Below the pieces are notes generated by a model, which saw only the letters and a program-made list of their open reading frames with translations, was not told the DNA's origin and made no database searches. Positions 2,611 to 56,567 of a DNA stretch of 61,454 nt are shown here, piece by piece (position 1 is the first letter of the stretch; each line of letters begins with the position of its first letter). The DNA comes from Telmatospirillum sp. (lineage in GTDB: Bacteria > Pseudomonadota > Alphaproteobacteria > Rhodospirillales > Magnetospirillaceae): assembly GCA_031291415.1 (NCBI GenBank), contig JARLJB010000234.1, forward strand, positions 1 to 61,454, written 5' to 3'. The translations under genes and the position numbers were made by a program.

Positions 2611-3306
2611 ATGCTTGAGCAATTGAAGCAAGAGGTCTTGGCGGCGAATCTCGCCTTGCCCAGTCATGGTCTGGTGACATTTACCTGGGGCAATGTCTCG
2701 GGCATCGATCGGCAACGGTCCTTGGTGGTGATCAAGCCGTCCGGCGTCGAGTATGCGGCGATGACTGCCGCCGATATGGTCGTGGTCGACCTCGAAAACG
2801 GCAAGGTGATCGAGGGTTCGTTGAAGCCGTCATCGGACACCCAGACACATTTGGTGCTGTATCGCGCTTTTGCGTCGCTTGGCGGTATCGTTCATACCCA
2901 TTCTCGTCATGCCACTGTCTGGGCTCAGTCGGGAAAAGACATCCCCGCGACCGGAACGACTCAGGCCGATTATTTCTATGGCGCGATTCCCTGTACCAGG
3001 CCGTTGACGGACGACGAAATCGCCGGTGACTATGAGGCGGAAACAGGACAGGTCATCGTCGAGACCTTCGAGACGCGTGGCTTGCTTCCCGAGCGCATTC
3101 CGGCGGCGCTCGTTCATTCGCATGGCCCGTTTGCTTTCGGCAAGGATCCCCACGAGGCTGTACACAATGCTGTGGTTCTGGAGGAAGTGGCCTACATGGG
3201 CATTTTCACGGAACTTCTGGCTCCCCGCACGCCTCCCATGCAGCAGGCGCTGCTCGACCGTCACTATCTGCGCAAGCATGGCAAGGGTGCTTACTATGGG
3301 CAGTAG
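2611..3306 (+). CDS. araD: Class II aldolase/epimerase, AraD-like (L-ribulose-5-phosphate 4-epimerase)
   Basis: 231 residues, the same length as E. coli AraD. The start ATG at 2611 has AAGGA upstream. The family uses a Zn2+ held by three His to interconvert L-ribulose-5-phosphate and D-xylulose-5-phosphate, or in relatives to cleave fuculose/rhamnulose phosphates. The Zn-binding motif VHTHSRHAT and the later [10 protein letters not shown] motif are present, followed by the NAVVLEEVA helix typical of AraD. The whole-length match makes AraD the best name, but neighbouring substrates are unknown and a related epimerase such as SgbE/UlaF type is possible. It follows the PfkB kinase by 160 bases. 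Confidence 0.8.
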
Positions 3307-39620: not shown

Positions 39621-40118
39621 TCAGGTGCGGATTCGGCTCATCAGCAGATCCATGGCGGCCAGGGCAGCGGCATGGCGGACCTCGTCGCGGTCGCCCTTCA
39701 GCAGCAGACGCTGGTGCAGGGTCACCCGGTTCCGGTGGGCGGCGGCGATATGGACGAGGCCGACGGGCTTGTCAGGCGATCCGCCGGTGGGACCGGCGAT
39801 GCCGGTGATGGCGACGCTGGCCGTCGCCGCCGACCGATCGAGGGCTCCTTCGGCCATGGCGCGGGCGACGTCTTCGCTTACCACGCCGAACCGTTCGATC
39901 AAGGAAGCATCGACGCCCAGGAGATCAATTTTCGCCTGGTTGGAATAGGTAATGAACCCGCGGTCGATCCAGGCGGAGCTGCCAGGGATGGCAGTCAGCG
40001 ACGCGCCCACCAGTCCGCCGGTACAGGACTCGGCGACGGTCAGCGACGTCGTGGTCGCCGCGCAAAGGTCAAGGACTTGCAGCGCCTTGGCGGTGAGGTC
40101 AATAGAAAGGCATTGCAT
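39621..40118 (-). CDS. pncC: Nicotinamide-nucleotide amidohydrolase (PncC / CinA C-terminal domain)
   Basis: 165 residues, a stand-alone CinA C-terminal domain deamidating NMN to nicotinate mononucleotide in pyridine salvage. Signature TVAESCTGGLVGASLTAIPG with catalytic Ser, and AITGIAGPTGGSPDKPVGLV. ATG 40118 overlaps the pgpA stop, so the two are coupled. It converges on the NicO gene with a 33-base spacer. Confidence 0.92.
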   Translation of the reverse strand: MQCLSIDLTAKALQVLDLCAATTTSLTVAESCTGGLVGASLTAIPGSSAWIDRGFITYSNQAKIDLLGVDASLIERFGVVSEDVARAMAEGALDRSAATASVAITGIAGPTGGSPDKPVGLVHIAAAHRNRVTLHQRLLLKGDRDEVRHAAALAAMDLLMSRIRT

Positions 40119-40600
40119 CAGGCTCTCCAGACGAGGGACAGGGCGAGCAGAACGACAATCCCGTAAATGCCGGCCAAAACGTCGTCAAGCATGACACCAA
40201 GGCCGCCCTTGATCTGCCGGTCGGCCCAGCTTACCGGCCAGGGTTTGGCGATATCGAAAAGACGGAACAGCACGAAACCGAGCAGATAATGCCATGGTTC
40301 CAGCGGGACGGGCAGCAGCACCAGCCACTGGCCGACAACTTCATCGATGACGATCAGGCCTGGATCTTCGACGCCCATGTCCGTAACCACGCGATCGGCG
40401 GCCCACCACCCGACCAGGAAGACGACGATCGCGGCGGCGCTCAGGGCTTGCCAGCCACCGATAGCCATAATGACCCAGGCGAAGGGCAGGGCAGCCAGCG
40501 AGCCCCATGTGCCGGGCGCTTTGGGCAGCAGCCCTGCACCGAACCATGTGGCCAGCAGTGCTGCGGGATCCTTGAGGGAAACAGGAGAAGGCGTACTCAT
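40118..40600 (-). CDS. pgpA: Phosphatidylglycerophosphatase A
   Basis: 160 residues, membrane enzyme dephosphorylating phosphatidylglycerol-phosphate. Seen: LPKAPGTWGSLAALPF near residue 25, the metal-binding VIDEVVGQWL, and FRLFDIAKPWPV, all family hallmarks, with about four membrane segments. ATG 40600 overlaps the stop of the GntR gene upstream, so this housekeeping gene is transcribed behind a sugar-acid regulator, an odd coupling. Confidence 0.93.
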   Translation of the reverse strand: MSTPSPVSLKDPAALLATWFGAGLLPKAPGTWGSLAALPFAWVIMAIGGWQALSAAAIVVFLVGWWAADRVVTDMGVEDPGLIVIDEVVGQWLVLLPVPLEPWHYLLGFVLFRLFDIAKPWPVSWADRQIKGGLGVMLDDVLAGIYGIVVLLALSLVWRA

Positions 40601-41316
40601 GTCGCGGCACCGGGGGCGGTACGCCGACGGCGGGGCGGGAGAGCGTTGGTCGCTTCGGTCAGGCCGAGTTTTTCAACGGTGGTGAAGACTTCTCGCAAAT
40701 GCCGGCGCAACGCGGCTTTCGCCTTGACGCCGTCGCCGGCGATAAGGTTGTCGGCTATTTCCTTGTGCTGTTCCAGCAGTTTGCCGTTTCGTCCAGGTTC
40801 CTGAACACTGAGATATCGGACCCGGTCGAATTGCGTTTTCGTCTGCGAGATGACGTTCCAGACTTTCGGGTTGCCGCCGAATTCGGCGATCATCGCGTGG
40901 AATTTGTTGTCGAGGCTGTAAAACTCTTCGGCATCGCCGTCTTCCACGGCCTTCGCCTGGGCTTCCATGCTGTCTTGGATGCGGCGGATGGCATCGGCGT
41001 CCATGCGGCGGGCGGCATCGGAAATCAAAGCGCATTCGAGATGCTCGCGGATATACTGCCCAACCGCGACGGCCTCCAGGGAGATCGGGGCGACGAACGA
41101 GCCGAATTGCGGATAGATCTTCACCAGCCCTTCTTCCGCCAACTTGATCAAGGCTTCCCGAACGGGCGTTCGGCTGACCTGCAGGCGATCGCACAGGTCA
41201 AGTTCCGACAACGGCGCATTGGGAGGAAGGACGCCACGAACGATATCCTCCCGCAAGGTGGTGAATACTTGGCTGGCGAGGCGGGAATTACGTCGGTCTC
41301 TATCGATTGCACTCAT
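40597..41316 (-). CDS. GntR/FCD-family regulator, UxuR/ExuR-like
   Basis: 239 residues from ATG 41316 (weak ribosome site; an upstream in-frame extension looks non-coding). GntR winged helix with LCDRLQVSRTPVREALIKLA, then an FCD domain with metal-ligand segments (LDNKFHAMIAEFGGN, LLEQHKEIADNLIAG). Next to uxuA, a hexuronate-type transporter and uxuB, it probably controls hexuronate catabolism and senses fructuronate or mannonate. The C-terminus ends in an Arg-rich tail. Confidence 0.85.
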   Translation of the reverse strand: MSAIDRDRRNSRLASQVFTTLREDIVRGVLPPNAPLSELDLCDRLQVSRTPVREALIKLAEEGLVKIYPQFGSFVAPISLEAVAVGQYIREHLECALISDAARRMDADAIRRIQDSMEAQAKAVEDGDAEEFYSLDNKFHAMIAEFGGNPKVWNVISQTKTQFDRVRYLSVQEPGRNGKLLEQHKEIADNLIAGDGVKAKAALRRHLREVFTTVEKLGLTEATNALPPRRRRTAPGAAT

Positions 41317-41406: not shown

Positions 41407-41443
41407 CAAGAGCGTGATGGGTTAAATTCTCATCACGCTCTTG
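41407..41443. repeat. Perfect 13-bp inverted repeat between uxuA and its regulator
   Basis: CAAGAGCGTGATG (41407-41419) and CATCACGCTCTTG (41431-41443), loop 11. It lies 31 bases past the uxuA stop and upstream of the GntR gene, both on the minus strand. Without a T-run on the minus strand it is either a weak terminator or a regulator site. Confidence 0.55.
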
Positions 41444-41473: not shown

Positions 41474-42664
41474 CTAGCTGATGCGACCGGACCGGAAGGC
41501 GTCCACCGTTTCCATGACGCCCCGCAGTTCGGCCAATCCCTTGAGGCGTCCGACGAAGGAATAACCGGGGTTCATCTTCTTGTCGATGTCATCGCCCAGA
41601 AGATGTCCATGGTCGGGCCGCATGGGGATTTGGGCGTCGGCGCGTCCTTCCTTGGCTCGCCTCGTTTCCTCAGCCATGACGGCGGCCGCGACGCCGATCA
41701 GGTCGGTGTCGCCGTTCAGATGTTCGGCTTCGTAGAACGATCCATCGGCGTCGTGGTGCGTATTGCGCAGGTGGACGAAATGAATGCGCTGTGCGAACTC
41801 CTTGGCCATCGCCACCAGATCGTTTTTCGGATTGGATCCAAAGGACCCTGTACACAAGGTCAAGCCACAGGCTGTCTCGGGCACGCCGGCGAACATGGCG
41901 CGGACGTCCTCGGCATTGGACATGACGCGCGGCAGGCCGAAGATCGGGAAGGACGGATCGTCCGGATGGATGCAAAGACGCGCTCCTTCCTCCTCGGCCA
42001 CCGGTGTGATCTCGCGCAGGAATTCGATGAGATTGGCACGCAGATCTTCCGTCTTTATTTCTTGATATAGTTCAAGCATTTGCTTGAAGCTGCTACGGTT
42101 ATAGGCGAAGTCGCGGGCTGGCAGCCAGTCGATCAGAACCCGTTCCAGTTCGGCAATCTGCTCCTGGCTCATGGCCTTGTAGCGCTCTTCGGCCTGGCGT
42201 ACCCGCTCGGGCGGATAGTCCTTTTCGGCGCCCTTGCGCTTAAGGACGCAAAGGTCGTATGCCGCGAAGTCGATACTGTCGTAGCGGAGCGCATAGCCGC
42301 CGGTCGGCAACCGGTACATCAGGTTGGTCCGGCTCCAGTCGGTGATGACCATGAAGTTGTAGCAGATCACCTTGACGCCGGCCCGCGCCACATTGCGGAT
42401 CGACTGCTTGTAGTTGTCGATCTTCTCGCGGAAATTGCCGGTGCGTGTCTTGATTTCCTCTCCGACCCCGATGCTTTCCACGACCGACCAGACGAGACCT
42501 GCATCGGCGACCTGCTTGCGTCGCTTGAGGATTTCGTCGGTCGTCCAGACGGTTCCCTGGTTCATGTGGTGGAGGGCCGTGACGATTCCCGTCGCGCCCG
42601 CTTGTCTCGCGTTTTCAAGGGTCACCGGATCATCGGGACCGAACCAACGCCATGTCTGTTCCAT
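41474..42664 (-). CDS. uxuA: D-mannonate dehydratase
   Basis: 396 residues, Fe2+/Mn2+-dependent enzyme making 2-keto-3-deoxygluconate from mannonate. Begins MEQTWRWFGPDDPV, carries ICYNFMVITDWSRT, the metal-ligand segments CIHPDDPSFPIFGLPR and FVHLRNT, and RPDHGHLLGDD near the C-terminus, all UxuA hallmarks. Full length. In one minus-strand block with the MHS transporter and uxuB. Confidence 0.95.
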   Translation of the reverse strand: MEQTWRWFGPDDPVTLENARQAGATGIVTALHHMNQGTVWTTDEILKRRKQVADAGLVWSVVESIGVGEEIKTRTGNFREKIDNYKQSIRNVARAGVKVICYNFMVITDWSRTNLMYRLPTGGYALRYDSIDFAAYDLCVLKRKGAEKDYPPERVRQAEERYKAMSQEQIAELERVLIDWLPARDFAYNRSSFKQMLELYQEIKTEDLRANLIEFLREITPVAEEEGARLCIHPDDPSFPIFGLPRVMSNAEDVRAMFAGVPETACGLTLCTGSFGSNPKNDLVAMAKEFAQRIHFVHLRNTHHDADGSFYEAEHLNGDTDLIGVAAAVMAEETRRAKEGRADAQIPMRPDHGHLLGDDIDKKMNPGYSFVGRLKGLAELRGVMETVDAFRSGRIS

Positions 42665-42732: not shown

Positions 42733-44073
42733 TTATTCACCAGCCGCTTCGGCCATGACGTCGGCCGGTTGGGTTTTAAGGACGGCCGTCTCACGCATAA
42801 TGAAGACACTGACGGCGGTTACCGCGGCGGTGAAGGCCACGTAACCGGCCAGCAGCCAGGGCGTGCCGTCGCCGACCTTGAGCAACCAACCAGCTCCGAA
42901 GCCGCCGATCGTGCCGATCAACGCGCCGAATTGCTGAACGATGGCGACGCCAGTAGCCCGGACAGAGACTGGGAAAAGTTCGGCGAAAAACGCCGCCTGC
43001 GGGGCGTACATGGCGCTATGCCCGACGGCCAAAGCGCCGATCAGGCCAAGCCAGATCAAGCCTTGCTGGTCGTAGTAGACCAGGCCGAACATCGGGAATG
43101 CCAACAGGAGGGTGATGACGGCGCCCAGAATATAGACTTTGCGCCGGCCGATCCGATCCGAGAGAGCGCCGAACAGCGGCAATGTGACCAGTTCGACGAG
43201 GATTGCGACGAGAATTGACGCGGTCATCACCGACTTCGGGATGCCGCGGCTGACCGCATAGGCCGAAATCATCACGGCATAGACCGAGAATATGGTGCTT
43301 TCCGATAGTTTCGCGCCCCAACCGAGAAGGACGTCCCGGGTGTGTTTTTTCAGCATGGTGGTCATCGGCACGTGAACGCGTTTTTCCCGGTGCGCCGCCG
43401 CGAACAGCGGCGATTCGCTTAAATGCAGACGAATGTAAAGACCGATGCCGATCAGAAGAATGCTGAGCAGGAAGGGAATTCTCCACCCCCATTCGATAAA
43501 GGACTCGTCGCTGATCGTCACCGTCAAAAGAGCGAACAAGGCCAGCGGCAGCACGAATCCGGCCGGCGCCCCGATTTGCACCAGAGAGCCGTAGAAACCG
43601 CGCTGCTCGGCGGGAGCATGTTCGCAGGTGATGAGGATGGCGTTGCCCTGTTCGCCGCCGATGCCGAAGCCGTGCAGCATGCGGATGCAGATGAGAATGA
43701 TCGGTGCGGTAATGCCGATCGTCCCATAGGTCGGCATCAGGCCAATGACGAAGGTCGCGATACCGACGATCAACAGGGTCGTCACCAGTGCTTTCTTGCG
43801 ACCGAAGCGATCGCCGATGTAACCGAAAACCAAGCCGCCGATCGGCCGGGCGATGAAGCCGGCCGCATAGGTTCCAAGGGCTACCAGCGACCCGACCAGC
43901 GGATCGAACTGGGGGAAGAACAGTTTATTGAAGACCAGTGCGGCGGCCGTTGCATAGATGAAAAAGTCATACCATTCGACAGTACTTCCGATGCAGGACG
44001 CCAAGGCCACGCGACGAATCATCGCCGGTGACGAAGCATTCGGGACACCATTGTCCTCTGTGCCTGACGACAT
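42733..44073 (-). CDS. MHS-family major facilitator transporter
   Basis: 446 residues from ATG 44073 (GGGAGAGG upstream). Twelve hydrophobic segments; metabolite:H+ symporter hallmarks STVEWYDFFIYATAAALVF in helix 1, RPIGGLVFGYIGDRFGRKKA after helix 2, and GALSDRIGRRKVYILGA in the second half. Relatives carry shikimate, proline/betaine or dicarboxylates. Between uxuA and uxuB it is the likely importer of a hexuronate or aldonate. Confidence 0.87.
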   Translation of the reverse strand: MSSGTEDNGVPNASSPAMIRRVALASCIGSTVEWYDFFIYATAAALVFNKLFFPQFDPLVGSLVALGTYAAGFIARPIGGLVFGYIGDRFGRKKALVTTLLIVGIATFVIGLMPTYGTIGITAPIILICIRMLHGFGIGGEQGNAILITCEHAPAEQRGFYGSLVQIGAPAGFVLPLALFALLTVTISDESFIEWGWRIPFLLSILLIGIGLYIRLHLSESPLFAAAHREKRVHVPMTTMLKKHTRDVLLGWGAKLSESTIFSVYAVMISAYAVSRGIPKSVMTASILVAILVELVTLPLFGALSDRIGRRKVYILGAVITLLLAFPMFGLVYYDQQGLIWLGLIGALAVGHSAMYAPQAAFFAELFPVSVRATGVAIVQQFGALIGTIGGFGAGWLLKVGDGTPWLLAGYVAFTAAVTAVSVFIMRETAVLKTQPADVMAEAAGE

Positions 44074-44107: not shown

Positions 44108-45619
44108 TCATGCCGTTTTCAGAAAATCCGTCAGGGTCTGTTTGACACCATGGGTCAACAGGCTCTCCAGATAGCTTTCCACGCCGCTGCGGAAGGCTTC
44201 GTTGGCCGCCAGCTCAGGGAAGAAGATGTCCTCGACGGCAAACAAGCCGGCCACCATCTGTTTGGCATTCCGGTTTCCGTTCTTGGCAATCGTGGTCAGC
44301 CGTTCCGCGAATGGATCGCTGATCGCATAAGTCTGTCCCTGTTCGTTAACGCCAAGGAGGAAACGCATCCAGGCGGCGACGGCCAGCGGAATGGCCTTGG
44401 GAGAGGCGCCGGCCTTGATCCGGTCAAGCGCCGGTTCGAGCAGGCGTGGCGGCAGCTTTTGCGATCCGTCGGACGAGATCTGCAGGGTCTTGTGGCGGAC
44501 GCCGGGGTTGCGGAATCGTCCTTCCAGAGCGACCGTATAGGCGGCGACATCGGTGCCGGGAACCGGCGGCAAGGTCGGGATCAGGTCATTGTCCCACAAG
44601 CTGCGGATGACTTTCGGTAAAAGCGGGTCGGCCATCGCGTCGGCGATCGTCTCGATACCGGCGACGACGGACAGATAGGCCAACGTCGAATGGGCGCCGT
44701 TCAGGCAGCGCAGCTTCATCAGTTCGAAAGGATGGACGTCATCGACCATGACGGCGCCGGCGTCTTCCCATTTCGGGCGACCCAGCGCGAAGCGGTCCTC
44801 GATGACCCACTGCCGGAAAGGCTCGCAGACGACCGGCCAAGCGTCTTCGAGACCGATGCCCGCTGCCACCGCGGCGCGGTCGGCATCCTGGGTGGCCGGC
44901 GTGATACGATCGACCATGGTGCAGGGGAAGGAGATGTTGTCTTCGATGAAGCGACCGAGCTCAGGATCCCTGAGCGTGGCGAAACGTGTGACGATACGGC
45001 GCACCTTGATTCCGTTTTGCGCCAGATTGTCACAAACCAGGACGGTGAAGGGGGGCACACCCGCGGCTCGCCGGAGCCGGATCGCTTCGGTCAACAGGCC
45101 GGGAGCGCTGCAGGGCGCGGTCGGGTTGGCGAGGTCGGCGCGAATCATCGGATGGGTCTCGTCGAGTGTTCCGATGGCCGCGTCCTGGCAATAACCCTTT
45201 TCGGTCACGGTCAACGTCACGATGCGGATTTCCGGCCGAACCGCCAGATCGAGGACGTCGCGCAACTGGTCGCTGGTCGCCATGGCGTCGAGCATCGATC
45301 CGACGACCTGGAAATGGTCGACACCATCTTCGCGGGTCAGCACCGTGTAGAGGCAGTCCTGCGGCTTCAAGGCGGCGCGGATCGCCGGTGACATCAGGTC
45401 GACGCCGATGATTCCCCAATCACGGGCCCCGGCTTCCAGAATTTGATCGGTGTAGGTCGCGAGATGGCCACGGCAGAACGCGCCTAGACCGATATGCAGG
45501 ATGCCCGCCGAAACAGCGGAACGGTCATAGCGGGGACGTTTCACATCGGCGGGAAGGGCCCCGAGACTAGCCAGCGACAAGCGGGGAAGCTTGCTGGTTG
45601 AGCCCGTCACATTGCTCAT
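44108..45619 (-). CDS. uxuB: Mannitol dehydrogenase-family oxidoreductase, probable fructuronate reductase
   Basis: 503 residues from ATG 45619 (GAGGTGAATG upstream). Long-chain polyol dehydrogenase: N-terminal Rossmann region with ILHIGLGAFCRGHLATYTDQ, and the catalytic Lys motif MKLRCLNGAHSTLAYL near residue 300. Length fits both mannitol dehydrogenase and UxuB. Next to uxuA the UxuB role, reducing fructuronate to mannonate with NADH, is favoured. Confidence 0.85.
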   Translation of the reverse strand: MSNVTGSTSKLPRLSLASLGALPADVKRPRYDRSAVSAGILHIGLGAFCRGHLATYTDQILEAGARDWGIIGVDLMSPAIRAALKPQDCLYTVLTREDGVDHFQVVGSMLDAMATSDQLRDVLDLAVRPEIRIVTLTVTEKGYCQDAAIGTLDETHPMIRADLANPTAPCSAPGLLTEAIRLRRAAGVPPFTVLVCDNLAQNGIKVRRIVTRFATLRDPELGRFIEDNISFPCTMVDRITPATQDADRAAVAAGIGLEDAWPVVCEPFRQWVIEDRFALGRPKWEDAGAVMVDDVHPFELMKLRCLNGAHSTLAYLSVVAGIETIADAMADPLLPKVIRSLWDNDLIPTLPPVPGTDVAAYTVALEGRFRNPGVRHKTLQISSDGSQKLPPRLLEPALDRIKAGASPKAIPLAVAAWMRFLLGVNEQGQTYAISDPFAERLTTIAKNGNRNAKQMVAGLFAVEDIFFPELAANEAFRSGVESYLESLLTHGVKQTLTDFLKTA

Positions 45620-45642
45620 TTCATTCACCTCGAACAAGGGTA

Positions 45643-45668
45643 CTAGGATACAAGTGCTAGTATCCTAG
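45643..45668. promoter_or_regulatory. Palindrome upstream of uxuB, candidate regulator operator
   Basis: CTAGGATAC (45643-45651) and GTATCCTAG (45660-45668), a perfect 9-bp dyad with eight bases between, 24 bases upstream of the uxuB start. Candidate site for the GntR-type regulator of the cluster. Confidence 0.55.
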
Positions 45669-45732
45669 CATCCAGATGAGGGAGAGGCAAGCAGGGGCGC
45701 GCGCCGTCAGCGCGTTTGATCGACGAAAGGGT

Positions 45733-53977: not shown

Positions 53978-54739
53978 TCAAGTTTTTTCGGGAGGCTGTT
54001 TCCGGTCGGAGGCGGGTGACGGGACGAATTGCGCCCAATCGATCTTTTCCCAGGTGCTGCGGACATGGTGATGAAGAAAAGCTCCCAGTTCCTCAGCTTT
54101 GCGCTCCGCCAGCAGGCGCACGATGGTGTCGTGTTCCTCGATGGCGGTTCGCCAGGTGTCGGTATTGAGGCTGCCCTGGTAGCGATAGCGCAGAAGCTGG
54201 CGGTTGATCGCCGCGTGAACGTCGCGCAGGGTGTTGTTGCCGGCCGCCGCGACGATGGCCGAATGGATGGCCTGGTTGAGGCGGAAGTAATTGGCGCGGT
54301 CCTGTCGTTCGAAAGCGGCCAACATCTCGTGGTGCAGGGCGCGGATCTCCGCGAGGTCCGTTTCGGTGGCCCGCCGGCAGGCCTGGACGCCGGCAAACCC
54401 CTCAATCAGTCCTAAGACATCGAGTTTTTCCTGAACCTCCTCGGCGGTCAGTGCCGTCACCACCGCTCCGCGGTTGGGAAGCAGCGTGACCAGGCCGTCA
54501 CCTCTCAGAATCTTGAGGGCTTCGCGCAATGGTGTCCGTGAAACCTGGAGCAATTCAGCCAAGGCCCGTTCGCGTAGCCGCTCGCCAGCCTTCAGTTCGT
54601 CGGCGGCGATCATCGTCCGCAGGCGCACGGCGATCTGTTGCGACAACAGATCTTCGGCTGGAGTCTGTGGGCCCGGATCCGCTGACGCGGGCTTGTTCGG
54701 TGTGAGGGGGGCTGCTGCCTCGATTTTTTTGTATGCCAT
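53978..54739 (-). CDS. GntR/FCD-family transcription regulator
   Basis: 253 residues from ATG 54739 (54784 also possible). An N-terminal disordered Ala/Pro segment, winged helix LLQVSRTPLREALKILRGDG, then an FCD domain (NQAIHSAIVAAAGNNTL, IEEHDTIVRLL, HHHVRSTWEK). It is divergent from the GntP permease operon, and TGGTATACCA-type palindromes lie between them, so it probably controls that operon and itself. Confidence 0.87.
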   Translation of the reverse strand: MAYKKIEAAAPLTPNKPASADPGPQTPAEDLLSQQIAVRLRTMIAADELKAGERLRERALAELLQVSRTPLREALKILRGDGLVTLLPNRGAVVTALTAEEVQEKLDVLGLIEGFAGVQACRRATETDLAEIRALHHEMLAAFERQDRANYFRLNQAIHSAIVAAAGNNTLRDVHAAINRQLLRYRYQGSLNTDTWRTAIEEHDTIVRLLAERKAEELGAFLHHHVRSTWEKIDWAQFVPSPASDRKQPPEKT

Positions 54740-54816
54740 TCCAAAAATCCAACCATCGTTTTCTACGTGATGCGGCGCAATCAATGAGGTGACGTCGCTT
54801 GCAGCCTCATAAAATC

Positions 54817-54978
54817 TGGTATACCATTTTGCGGATGGTGTTTCCTTTTGTCGCTGCTGACGGTCGAAGACACCGAAAAAACAAAAATATATCCCGGATG
54901 ACAGTCGCTTCTGGGAAGGAGGAACGATGACCCAAGATATGGTGGACGGAGCTTACTCTACCGTCTTTTGGTATGCCA
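54817..54978. promoter_or_regulatory. TGGTATACCA-type operators of the GntR regulator
   Basis: TGGTATACCA, a perfect palindrome, lies at 54817-54826, and TGGTATGCCA, one base off, at 54969-54978, between the regulator and the permease operon. The first is 78 bases from the regulator start. A related GTATGCCA stretch spans the regulator ATG. Candidate binding sites for autoregulation and repression of the operon. Confidence 0.6.
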
Positions 54979-55058
54979 TCGGCCGCGATAGCGGTCGTTG
55001 GCGTATGTCGCGTCACTGGACCGGCGTATCGCGCAAGGCACCTCGCGCCATCGTCTGA
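54927..55058 (+). CDS. Possible small protein or leader peptide upstream of the GntP permease
   Basis: 43 codons, beginning MTQDMVDGAYSTVFWYAIG and ending RAPRAIV-like in a basic tail, with a near-perfect AGGAGG five bases before ATG 54927. The second GntR-type palindrome lies inside it. No family is recognised. The strong ribosome site supports translation; it ends 144 bases before the permease gene. It could be a leader peptide or a chance frame. Confidence 0.35.
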   Translation: MTQDMVDGAYSTVFWYAIGRDSGRWRMSRHWTGVSRKAPRAIV

Positions 55059-55202
55059 TCCCGGTCGCGAGCCAGCAATTTTCCTTCGAACGGTTTTTCG
55101 ACCGGCGCCAACGACGCCGGACGGACGGAGCATGTTTGTCTCCGGACGTGAACCGGCGGGTTGCCACCGATCGAAGGAGTCCTGACGGACGTGGGGGAAC
55201 CT

Positions 55203-56567
55203 ATGCAACCGGACCTCATTCAGATCTTTATTTCCACGTTTTCCATCGTTCTATTGGTTCTGCTGATTACCCGGGTGAAGCTTCACCCGTTCCTCGCCTT
55301 GATGATCGCCTCGGCGTTCCTCGGTGTGGCGAGCGGATTGGCACCGACGGCGACGATCAAAGCCTTCCAGAAAGGATTCGGCGGGATCCTGAGTTCCGTG
55401 GGACTGGTGGTCGGCCTGGGCAGCATGCTGGGCGGACTTCTGCTCAGTTCCGGCGGCGCCGACAAGATCGCCAACGCTTTTGTTGGTGCCGGGTCGAAAT
55501 TCTGGATCCCGACATCGATCTGCGGTGCCGCTCTTCTCATCGGACTGCCGCACCTCTTCGACGTCAGTTTCGTCATGTTGGTGCCGCTGGTATTCGCCAT
55601 TTCCCAGCGAACCGGCAACCATCTGATGCGACTCGGACTGCCGATGGCGGCTGGTCTCTATGTATCCCACGGTTTTCTTCTGCCGCATCCGTCGCCAACT
55701 TTGGCCCTGGCGGTCTTCCATGCCGATGCCGGCCGGACCATTCTTTACGGCTTCATGCTGGCGATACCGATCGCCATCCTGACCGGACCAATGCTGACTC
55801 CCTGGGTGATGCGTTGGTTTCCCAAGCCGCTCGATGTCGCCGGCAGCCCGATCATGGCTGCTGCGGCACGTAACGATGCCGCTGACAGCAAGCGCCGCAG
55901 TCCGGCCCTGCCGTTGGTTCTGCTGACGGTGCTGCTGCCTCCGGGCCTGATGTTGTTGCGGACCAGCCTGCGCTCCTTCTTGCCAGCAAACGGTATGTTG
56001 CACGAAGTGATTGACGGAATCGGCGATCCGATCGTGTCGCTGGCTATCGCCGTACTGTTCGCCATTTATGCTTTGGGCGTTCGTTCAGGCATGGGGCTGG
56101 GCCAGATACAGAAGCTGTTGGGCAAGAGTCTCGCGCCGGCGGCTGGCGTCATCCTTATTCTCGGGGCGGGTGGCGGTCTCAAGGAGATGCTGATGGCCAC
56201 CCATATCGGCGACATGATCGCCCAAGGGGCCAGCCATTGGCAGATATCTCCCTTGCTGTTGGCCTGGTCGGTGGCGGCGCTGATGCGCATCGCCGTCGGC
56301 TCGGCCACTGTCGCCACGGTCACCGCCGCTGGTCTGGTTGCCCCGATCGCCGCGGTCCACCCGGAAATCAGCCCGGAACTACTGGTGCTGGCCGTCGCTT
56401 CTGGTGGCGTGATGCTGTCGCATCTGAACGATTCCGGGTTCTGGCTGTTCAAGGAATATTTCCAACTCACTGTCGCGCAAACGCTGAAGAGCTGGACTTT
56501 GCTGGTTTCCCTGCAGTCTCTGCTCGGGCTGACCGGTGTCTTGATGATCAACGCCTTGGGCGGGTAA
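55203..56567 (+). CDS. GntP-family gluconate-type permease
   Basis: 454 residues from ATG 55203 (GGGGGAA upstream; the frame is open back to 55161). About twelve membrane helices with GntP hallmarks: LVLLITRVKLHPFLALMIAS, GFLLPHPSPTLALAVFHAD, and VASGGVMLSHLNDSGFWLFK near the C-terminus. The family imports gluconate and related aldonates by proton symport. Next to a SAF-domain dehydrogenase, a less common sugar acid is possible. Confidence 0.88.
   Translation: MQPDLIQIFISTFSIVLLVLLITRVKLHPFLALMIASAFLGVASGLAPTATIKAFQKGFGGILSSVGLVVGLGSMLGGLLLSSGGADKIANAFVGAGSKFWIPTSICGAALLIGLPHLFDVSFVMLVPLVFAISQRTGNHLMRLGLPMAAGLYVSHGFLLPHPSPTLALAVFHADAGRTILYGFMLAIPIAILTGPMLTPWVMRWFPKPLDVAGSPIMAAAARNDAADSKRRSPALPLVLLTVLLPPGLMLLRTSLRSFLPANGMLHEVIDGIGDPIVSLAIAVLFAIYALGVRSGMGLGQIQKLLGKSLAPAAGVILILGAGGGLKEMLMATHIGDMIAQGASHWQISPLLLAWSVAALMRIAVGSATVATVTAAGLVAPIAAVHPEISPELLVLAVASGGVMLSHLNDSGFWLFKEYFQLTVAQTLKSWTLLVSLQSLLGLTGVLMINALGG

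Follow-up and report, generated by a model that had tools for sequence, protein, structure and literature searches.

A doubled inverted dyad before uxuB as the probable operator of a small hexuronate regulon in Telmatospirillum

Results

The gene block and its regulator

The DNA analysed here (the window, 61,454 nucleotides of a Telmatospirillum sp. contig) belongs to a genome of 7.14 Mb in 412 contigs (G000). Its minus strand carries, in order of reading, uxuB, an MFS transporter gene, uxuA, a GntR gene, pgpA and pncC (Table 1). This is the order given in a preliminary description of the window, a uxuB-transporter-uxuA block with the regulator at its far end, followed by pgpA and pncC. The regulator gene was also said there to run into pgpA and pncC by overlapping starts, and in this genome it does: the TGA of gntR overlaps the ATG of pgpA (ATGA, 40600-40597), and the TGA of pgpA overlaps the ATG of pncC by one base, at 40118. 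The regulator combines an N-terminal GntR helix-turn-helix domain (PF00392, 61.6 bits) with an FCD domain (PF07729, 101.2 bits), both above cut-off. Its scores were far below the curated cut-offs of the UxuR equivalog NF007588 (33.5 bits, cut-off 442), of NanR (NF003011, 88.2 bits, cut-off 260), of the ExuR equivalog (27.2 bits, cut-off 396) and of the phnR model. Among solved structures, 7u5q is the closest in sequence. Elsewhere in the window, at 53978-56567, a second GntR/FCD gene is divergent from a long ORF, a putative permease.

Table 1. Features of the uxuB block, its upstream site and related sites
Feature	Position	Strand	Basis
pncC, CinA C-terminal family, start overlaps pgpA stop	39621..40118	-	ORF list, profile match
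pgpA, start overlaps gntR stop	40118..40600	-	ORF list, profile match
GntR/FCD regulator, inferred to bind the operator	40597..41316	-	PF00392 + PF07729
37-bp inverted repeat, perfect 13-bp arms, in uxuA-gntR gap; dispersed-repeat copy	41407..41443		RNA folding, repeat scan
uxuA, mannonate dehydratase	41474..42664	-	TIGR00695 495.8 bits, above cut-off 199.55
MFS transporter, metabolite:H+ symporter type	42733..44052	-	TIGR00883 381 bits, below cut-off 443
uxuB-like fructuronate reductase, mannitol dehydrogenase family	44108..45619	-	NF011611 439 bits, below curated cut-off 603
36-bp stretch identical to L004:6015-6050 (G000:C119), before ACS-type MFS gene	45635..45670		blastn
26-bp palindrome, two inverted GntR dyads 2 bp apart	45643..45668		pattern search
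uxuB-proximal dyad CTTGTATCCTAG, then TAC to 45640	45643..45654	-	site comparison
uxuB-distal dyad CTAGTATCCTAG, inverted relative to proximal	45657..45668	+	site comparison
putative -10 box TAGGAT, inside distal dyad	45662..45667	-	shared TAGKAT motif
putative -35 box TTGCCT	45685..45690	-	TTGnC at 17 or 18 spacing, 5/5 sites
paralogue operator CTRCCATGGTAGTATAC	L082 7777 and ~8007 (variant); L078 7123 and 7222		sequence scan
paralogue operator CTRCCATGGTAGTATAC	L080 1910 and 2019; L084 710		sequence scan

A palindrome before uxuB and its second copy in the genome

The 26-mer CTAGGATACAAGTGCTAGTATCCTAG has perfect 9-bp arms around 8 bp (CTAGGATAC-N8-GTATCCTAG) and ends 23 bp upstream of the uxuB ATG, just before the gene, where the preliminary description had placed it. 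With up to three mismatches allowed, the palindrome pattern matched once in the window and never in 100 shuffles. In the whole genome exactly two perfect matches were found, the one in the window and one at G000:C119:6023-6048 (0 for the reversed control pattern); one further place, with three mismatches, lies on contig C343 inside a 954-residue open frame. The two perfect copies share 36 identical bp; apart from these, blastn matched nothing in the window to contig C119 (8,170 bases). The C119 copy lies 128 bp before an ACS-type MFS gene (best family D-galactonate transporter type, 239 bits, below the cut-off of 395). The gene after it belongs to the YhcH/YiaL family (166 bits, above cut-off). 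The search of the genome for the palindrome, which the preliminary description had proposed as a check, thus yielded one more perfect copy, before a sugar-acid-type transporter gene. Neither of the two transporters, nor uxuB, reaches the curated cut-off of the family it is named after, so that the substrate is assigned from context. We read the palindrome as a hexuronate operator because only two exact sites occur in 7.14 Mb, both before sugar-acid-type genes. The accessible parts of the open-licence literature yielded no description of the site, and no open-licence paper on Telmatospirillum together with uronate was found.

Sites in a sister genome face orthologous units

Among 55 genomes of the family, palindromes with 0-1 mismatch were confined to the window's genome and G052, a member of the same genus. 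G052 has three sites, with 0, 1 and 3 mismatches. One lies before uxuB-uxuA-gntR; the other two precede MFS genes, in one case the orthologue of the window's in-operon transporter (83%) and in the other that of the ACS-type transporter (89%). The in-operon MFS gene of the window thus has its own locus and its own site in G052, and the three sites face three orthologous units. The operator is present wherever the transporter gene lies in these two genomes, and therefore travels with the hexuronate genes; sites precede more than one hexuronate unit in each genome (two in G000, three in G052). The 150 bp upstream of the uxuB site are 55% identical between G000 and G052 (50 shuffles: mean 51%, maximum 56%), that is, unalignable, and the site therefore stands out as a footprint, or conserved island. 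The G052 copies differ in detail, with the proximal dyad retained. Without mismatch, the 15-mer CTWGTATCCTAGTAC matches at the two G000 sites and the three G052 sites, and at no other place in the five genus members. Full sites are found in the two of five genus members that have an orthologue of the local GntR (75-77% identity) adjoining uxuA.

With up to two mismatches CTWGTATCCTAGTAC gave 14 places in the genus vs 44 for the reversed control, so that the seven places beyond the five exact sites and the two G000 distal dyads were not counted. A two-mismatch version, CTTGTATCCTAGTTA, occurs at G000:C175:61016-61030 (L083 ~3017-3031), immediately upstream of a gene of the zinc alcohol-dehydrogenase type; TRAP transporter genes and a third GntR paralogue lie nearby. 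Outside the genus, six of 50 family genomes have one palindrome each with two or three mismatches, all in long open frames; in tblastx, L003 matched L010 and L012 (among the matches listed), the letters of these places fit what we take to be a DTGIGIP-type box of histidine-kinase ATPase domains, and tblastn found no uxu genes in these loci. An exact scan of the genome collection with CTAGKATAC-N8-GTATMCTAG gave ten places: one G052 contig, two homologous Clostridium loci (L020 and L025) and seven where no hexuronate link was found.

The palindrome as two inverted 12-bp dyads

The 26-mer is best read, from the comparison of sites, as two inverted 12-bp GntR dyads CTWGTATCCTAG with centres 14 bp apart. 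Its downstream part is CTWGTATCCTAG and its upstream part an inverted copy, each a 12-bp dyad; the coding-strand form of the sites is approximately GCTAGGATACYAGCRCTTGTATCCTAGTACYC. The proximal dyad with its following TAC keeps the same 15 bases across the five G000 and G052 sites bar one A/T position, and the distal dyad varies more. Variation falls mostly in the upstream half, and the ACS site of G052 deviates most. The 12-bp dyad was taken as the unit because paralogous GntR genes in four genomes adjoin CTRCCATGGTAG-TATAC in the same register. The single palindrome of the preliminary description is therefore real, but it is better seen as two inverted dyads around a promoter start. The dyad core, GT-AT-CC, is one base off the GT-N2/3-AC consensus of FadR-type GntR sites; this departure from the canonical core concerns the operator and not the family of the GntR protein. 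A NanR-like reading as direct repeats (TWGTAT-NN-TAGTAY), prompted by the weak NanR-subfamily score and by the accessible part of a paper on NanR (PMC8012715), was dropped once the paralogue clusters proved to carry CTRCCATGGTAG, an evident 12-bp dyad of the same register.

A promoter-like frame overlaps the dyads

All five sites (two in G000, three in G052) share a promoter-like frame, TTGnC-N17/18-TAGKAT, with the -10 box within the upstream dyad. The best -35 boxes 16-18 bp before TAGKAT reached 22 of 30 matches, against 11.2 (sd 2.0) for a null of mononucleotide shuffles, with 0 of 20,000 shuffles as high; the motif had been chosen after inspection of the sites. When the anchor was varied, TAGKAT and one base before it gave 22/30 and one base after it 18, and the others (30 to 74) gave 7-14. 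Placing the -10 box at TATCCT or TAGTAC in the proximal dyad was rejected, there being no -35-like box at the right distance. A consensus promoter scan, which needs 9 of 12 matches, found none in the region; the putative promoter scores 8. Transcription would then start near 45655, in the middle of the palindrome and 36 nt upstream of the uxuB start.

With this start, the distal dyad would cover the -10 box and the proximal dyad roughly +1 to +15 of the uxuB promoter, an arrangement that fits steric repression by the operon's own GntR/FCD protein. This protein, whose gene stands last in the operon, would bind the operator, probably as two dimers, and block RNA polymerase until an intermediate of the hexuronate pathway releases it. 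What the DNA shows directly is where the sites lie and how they are distributed, that they share a promoter-like motif and that they are linked to the GntR gene. From this we infer GntR binding, repression, the number of dimers and the effector. No copy of the operator was found upstream of gntR itself.

A long perfect palindrome, present in two copies within 36 identical bp, could also be an RNA element, a terminator or a mobile repeat with no operator function. We consider this extremely improbable: the only two exact copies in the genome both precede genes of related function, the G052 copies vary in detail yet keep the proximal dyad, and a transcript starting in mid-palindrome, as inferred here, would not include both arms.

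GntR paralogues and their operators

Two further GntR paralogues are encoded in G000, on contigs C167 and C175 (51-52% identity at E <= 1e-40), along with more distant ones. Both share the recognition-helix sequence VSRTPVREAL with the local GntR, which raises the question of whether the site is read by one of them, or by both, and not mainly by the local protein; the two-mismatch motif before the alcohol-dehydrogenase-type gene near the C175 paralogue points the same way. We nevertheless regard such a reading as improbable. Paralogous GntR genes beside a second UxuA homologue, those of the C167 type, have a different operator of their own, CTRCCATGGTAGTATAC, in all four clusters looked at, and the full site tracks the orthologue of the local GntR. 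Beside these paralogues, CTRCCATGGTAG-TATAC was present in two copies each in G051 and G053, in one copy plus a variant in G000 and in one copy in the G052 stretch.

The other genus members are arranged differently. The ACS transporter gene is divergent from uxuB in G051, G053 and G054, an independent link between the two units. The uxu-linked GntR of G051 and G053 is a different sequence, with 47-51% identity to the G000/G052 protein; a GntR match was not found in the 0.9-Mb assembly of G054. Single dyads of the form CTWGTATGGYAG were seen in the promoter regions of uxuB and of the ACS gene in G051 and G053. The right half of the operator is TGGYAG in these genomes vs TCCTAG in G000 and G052, and both pairs have CTWGTA as the left half. 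The paralogous GntR clusters have TGGTAG as their half-site (CTRCCATGGTAG). The motif CTWGTATnnYAGTA was not found in the uxaC loci L093-L099. Supports in the GntR tree were 0.68-0.72, and regulator exchange and fast divergence were not separated. It is possible, as a tentative account, that the hexuronate operon changed its GntR within the genus and that operators changed one half-site at a time, with the double dyad as the outcome of a stepwise route through hybrid operators.

Linkage to pgpA and pncC

The preliminary description further proposed that sugar-acid signals could affect pgpA and pncC. In its full form, the operator would govern both genes through one long transcript, uxuB-...-gntR-pgpA-pncC, and hexuronate would alter the expression of phospholipid and NAD-salvage genes. 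Six genes on one strand are consistent with such a transcript, as are the start/stop overlaps of gntR with pgpA and of pgpA with pncC, which leave no intergenic pgpA promoter. The arrangement is not general among relatives. The gap between gntR and pgpA in G052 is 274 nt if pgpA starts at the ATG closest to the part that aligns with its relatives, and 154 nt if the start in the ORF list, a TTG further upstream, is used. Across 30 family loci examined, gntR lies upstream of pgpA in two, those of the window's genome and G052, whereas pncC lies beside pgpA in 29. In G051, G053 and G054, pgpA and uxuA are on different contigs, and in G051 mlaC precedes pgpA.

The gap between uxuA and gntR also speaks against a single transcript: its 157 nt, able to hold a gntR promoter, contain a strong hairpin, the stretch with the 37-bp repeat folding at -22.8 kcal/mol (z -5.8). 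The corresponding place in G052 has an unrelated hairpin (z -1.86; 10 of 200 shuffles as good). The repeat is a copy of a dispersed element, GAGCGTGATGnnnATTTAACnCATCACGCTC, which with up to three mismatches occurs 24 times in the window's genome, 13 times in G051, 89 times in G053 (at some places every 100 bp) and 0 times in G052; it is present in 16 of the 55 family genomes (0 for the reversed control). Each of the 55 has one pgpA, and the gene of the window is the only PgpA match in its genome at E <= 1e-15, which would make strict dependence on hexuronate implausible.

A long transcript under the uxuB operator is accordingly unlikely on the comparative evidence, which speaks against the cross-link as a conserved feature, and the proposed effect of sugar acids was not borne out as a general one, given the gap in G052, the two of 30 loci and the hairpin. 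Strict hexuronate control of pgpA and pncC is unlikely; some read-through into these genes may occur in this genome. The proposed link from sugar acids to phospholipid and NAD genes would, if real, be of greater consequence.

Discussion

We propose, with considerable confidence though from sequence comparison, that the palindrome is the two-dyad promoter operator of a small hexuronate regulon, bound by the GntR/FCD repressor of its own operon and released by a pathway intermediate. In G000 this regulon would comprise uxuB-MFS-uxuA(-gntR) and the ACS-type MFS-yhcH unit on another contig. The hexuronate operator suggested in the preliminary description is well supported by the second copy in G000, the three sites in G052 and their co-occurrence with the orthologue of the local GntR. 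It is very probably a real operator of the ordinary kind for a local GntR regulon; what is uncommon is that an inverted pair of dyads lies over the putative -10 and +1 and that a half-site differs between species. From a palindrome noted in one copy the analysis arrives at a predicted regulon, for which it names a regulator, two transcription units and a model of the promoter. For comparing how GntR operators evolve inside one genus, these genomes make a compact case.

The double-dyad form also occurs in the two Clostridium loci, as CTAGTATAC-N8-GTATACTAG (L025 6728-6753 and L020 2067-2092). As in the window, L025 (a contig of Clostridium sp. K13) combines the exact double-dyad with a GntR-like (29%) and a uxuA-like (37%) gene; its gene set, however, differs, the core is the canonical GTATAC and the phylum is distant. 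The Clostridium double-dyad could be convergent or a matter of chance.

The hexuronate regulon of E. coli is controlled by UxuR and ExuR, members of the GntR/FadR subfamily, with the regulator near uxuA/uxuB. The window resembles it in having a GntR/FCD regulator near uxuA/uxuB and palindromic operators before catabolic genes and transporters. It differs in that its protein falls far below both equivalog cut-offs and that its operator doubles the dyad and reads GTATCC where the consensus has GT-N2/3-AC. FadR-type sites, in the accessible part of a comparative account, have GT-N2/3-AC cores, with 2 nt between GT and AC in the UxuR group, and palindromic sites of the subfamily often come with additional, weaker boxes at 7-12 nt from their centre; the same account also names proteins of the FadR type that have other motifs (PMC4494728). 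Like the sites with extra half-sites in that text, the site before uxuB is palindromic and has a second element, but in its case that element is a whole inverted dyad, and CC takes the place of the AC half. In the Thermotoga UxaR regulon, as far as the available text describes it, a GntR regulator with a 17-nt motif has sites before uxuBA and transport genes, and transporter systems have been exchanged between species (PMC3750489). Compared by description, the window shares with it a GntR regulator, sites before uxu and transport genes, and transporter differences between genomes, whereas the UxaR motif is 17 nt long and belongs to a different phylum.
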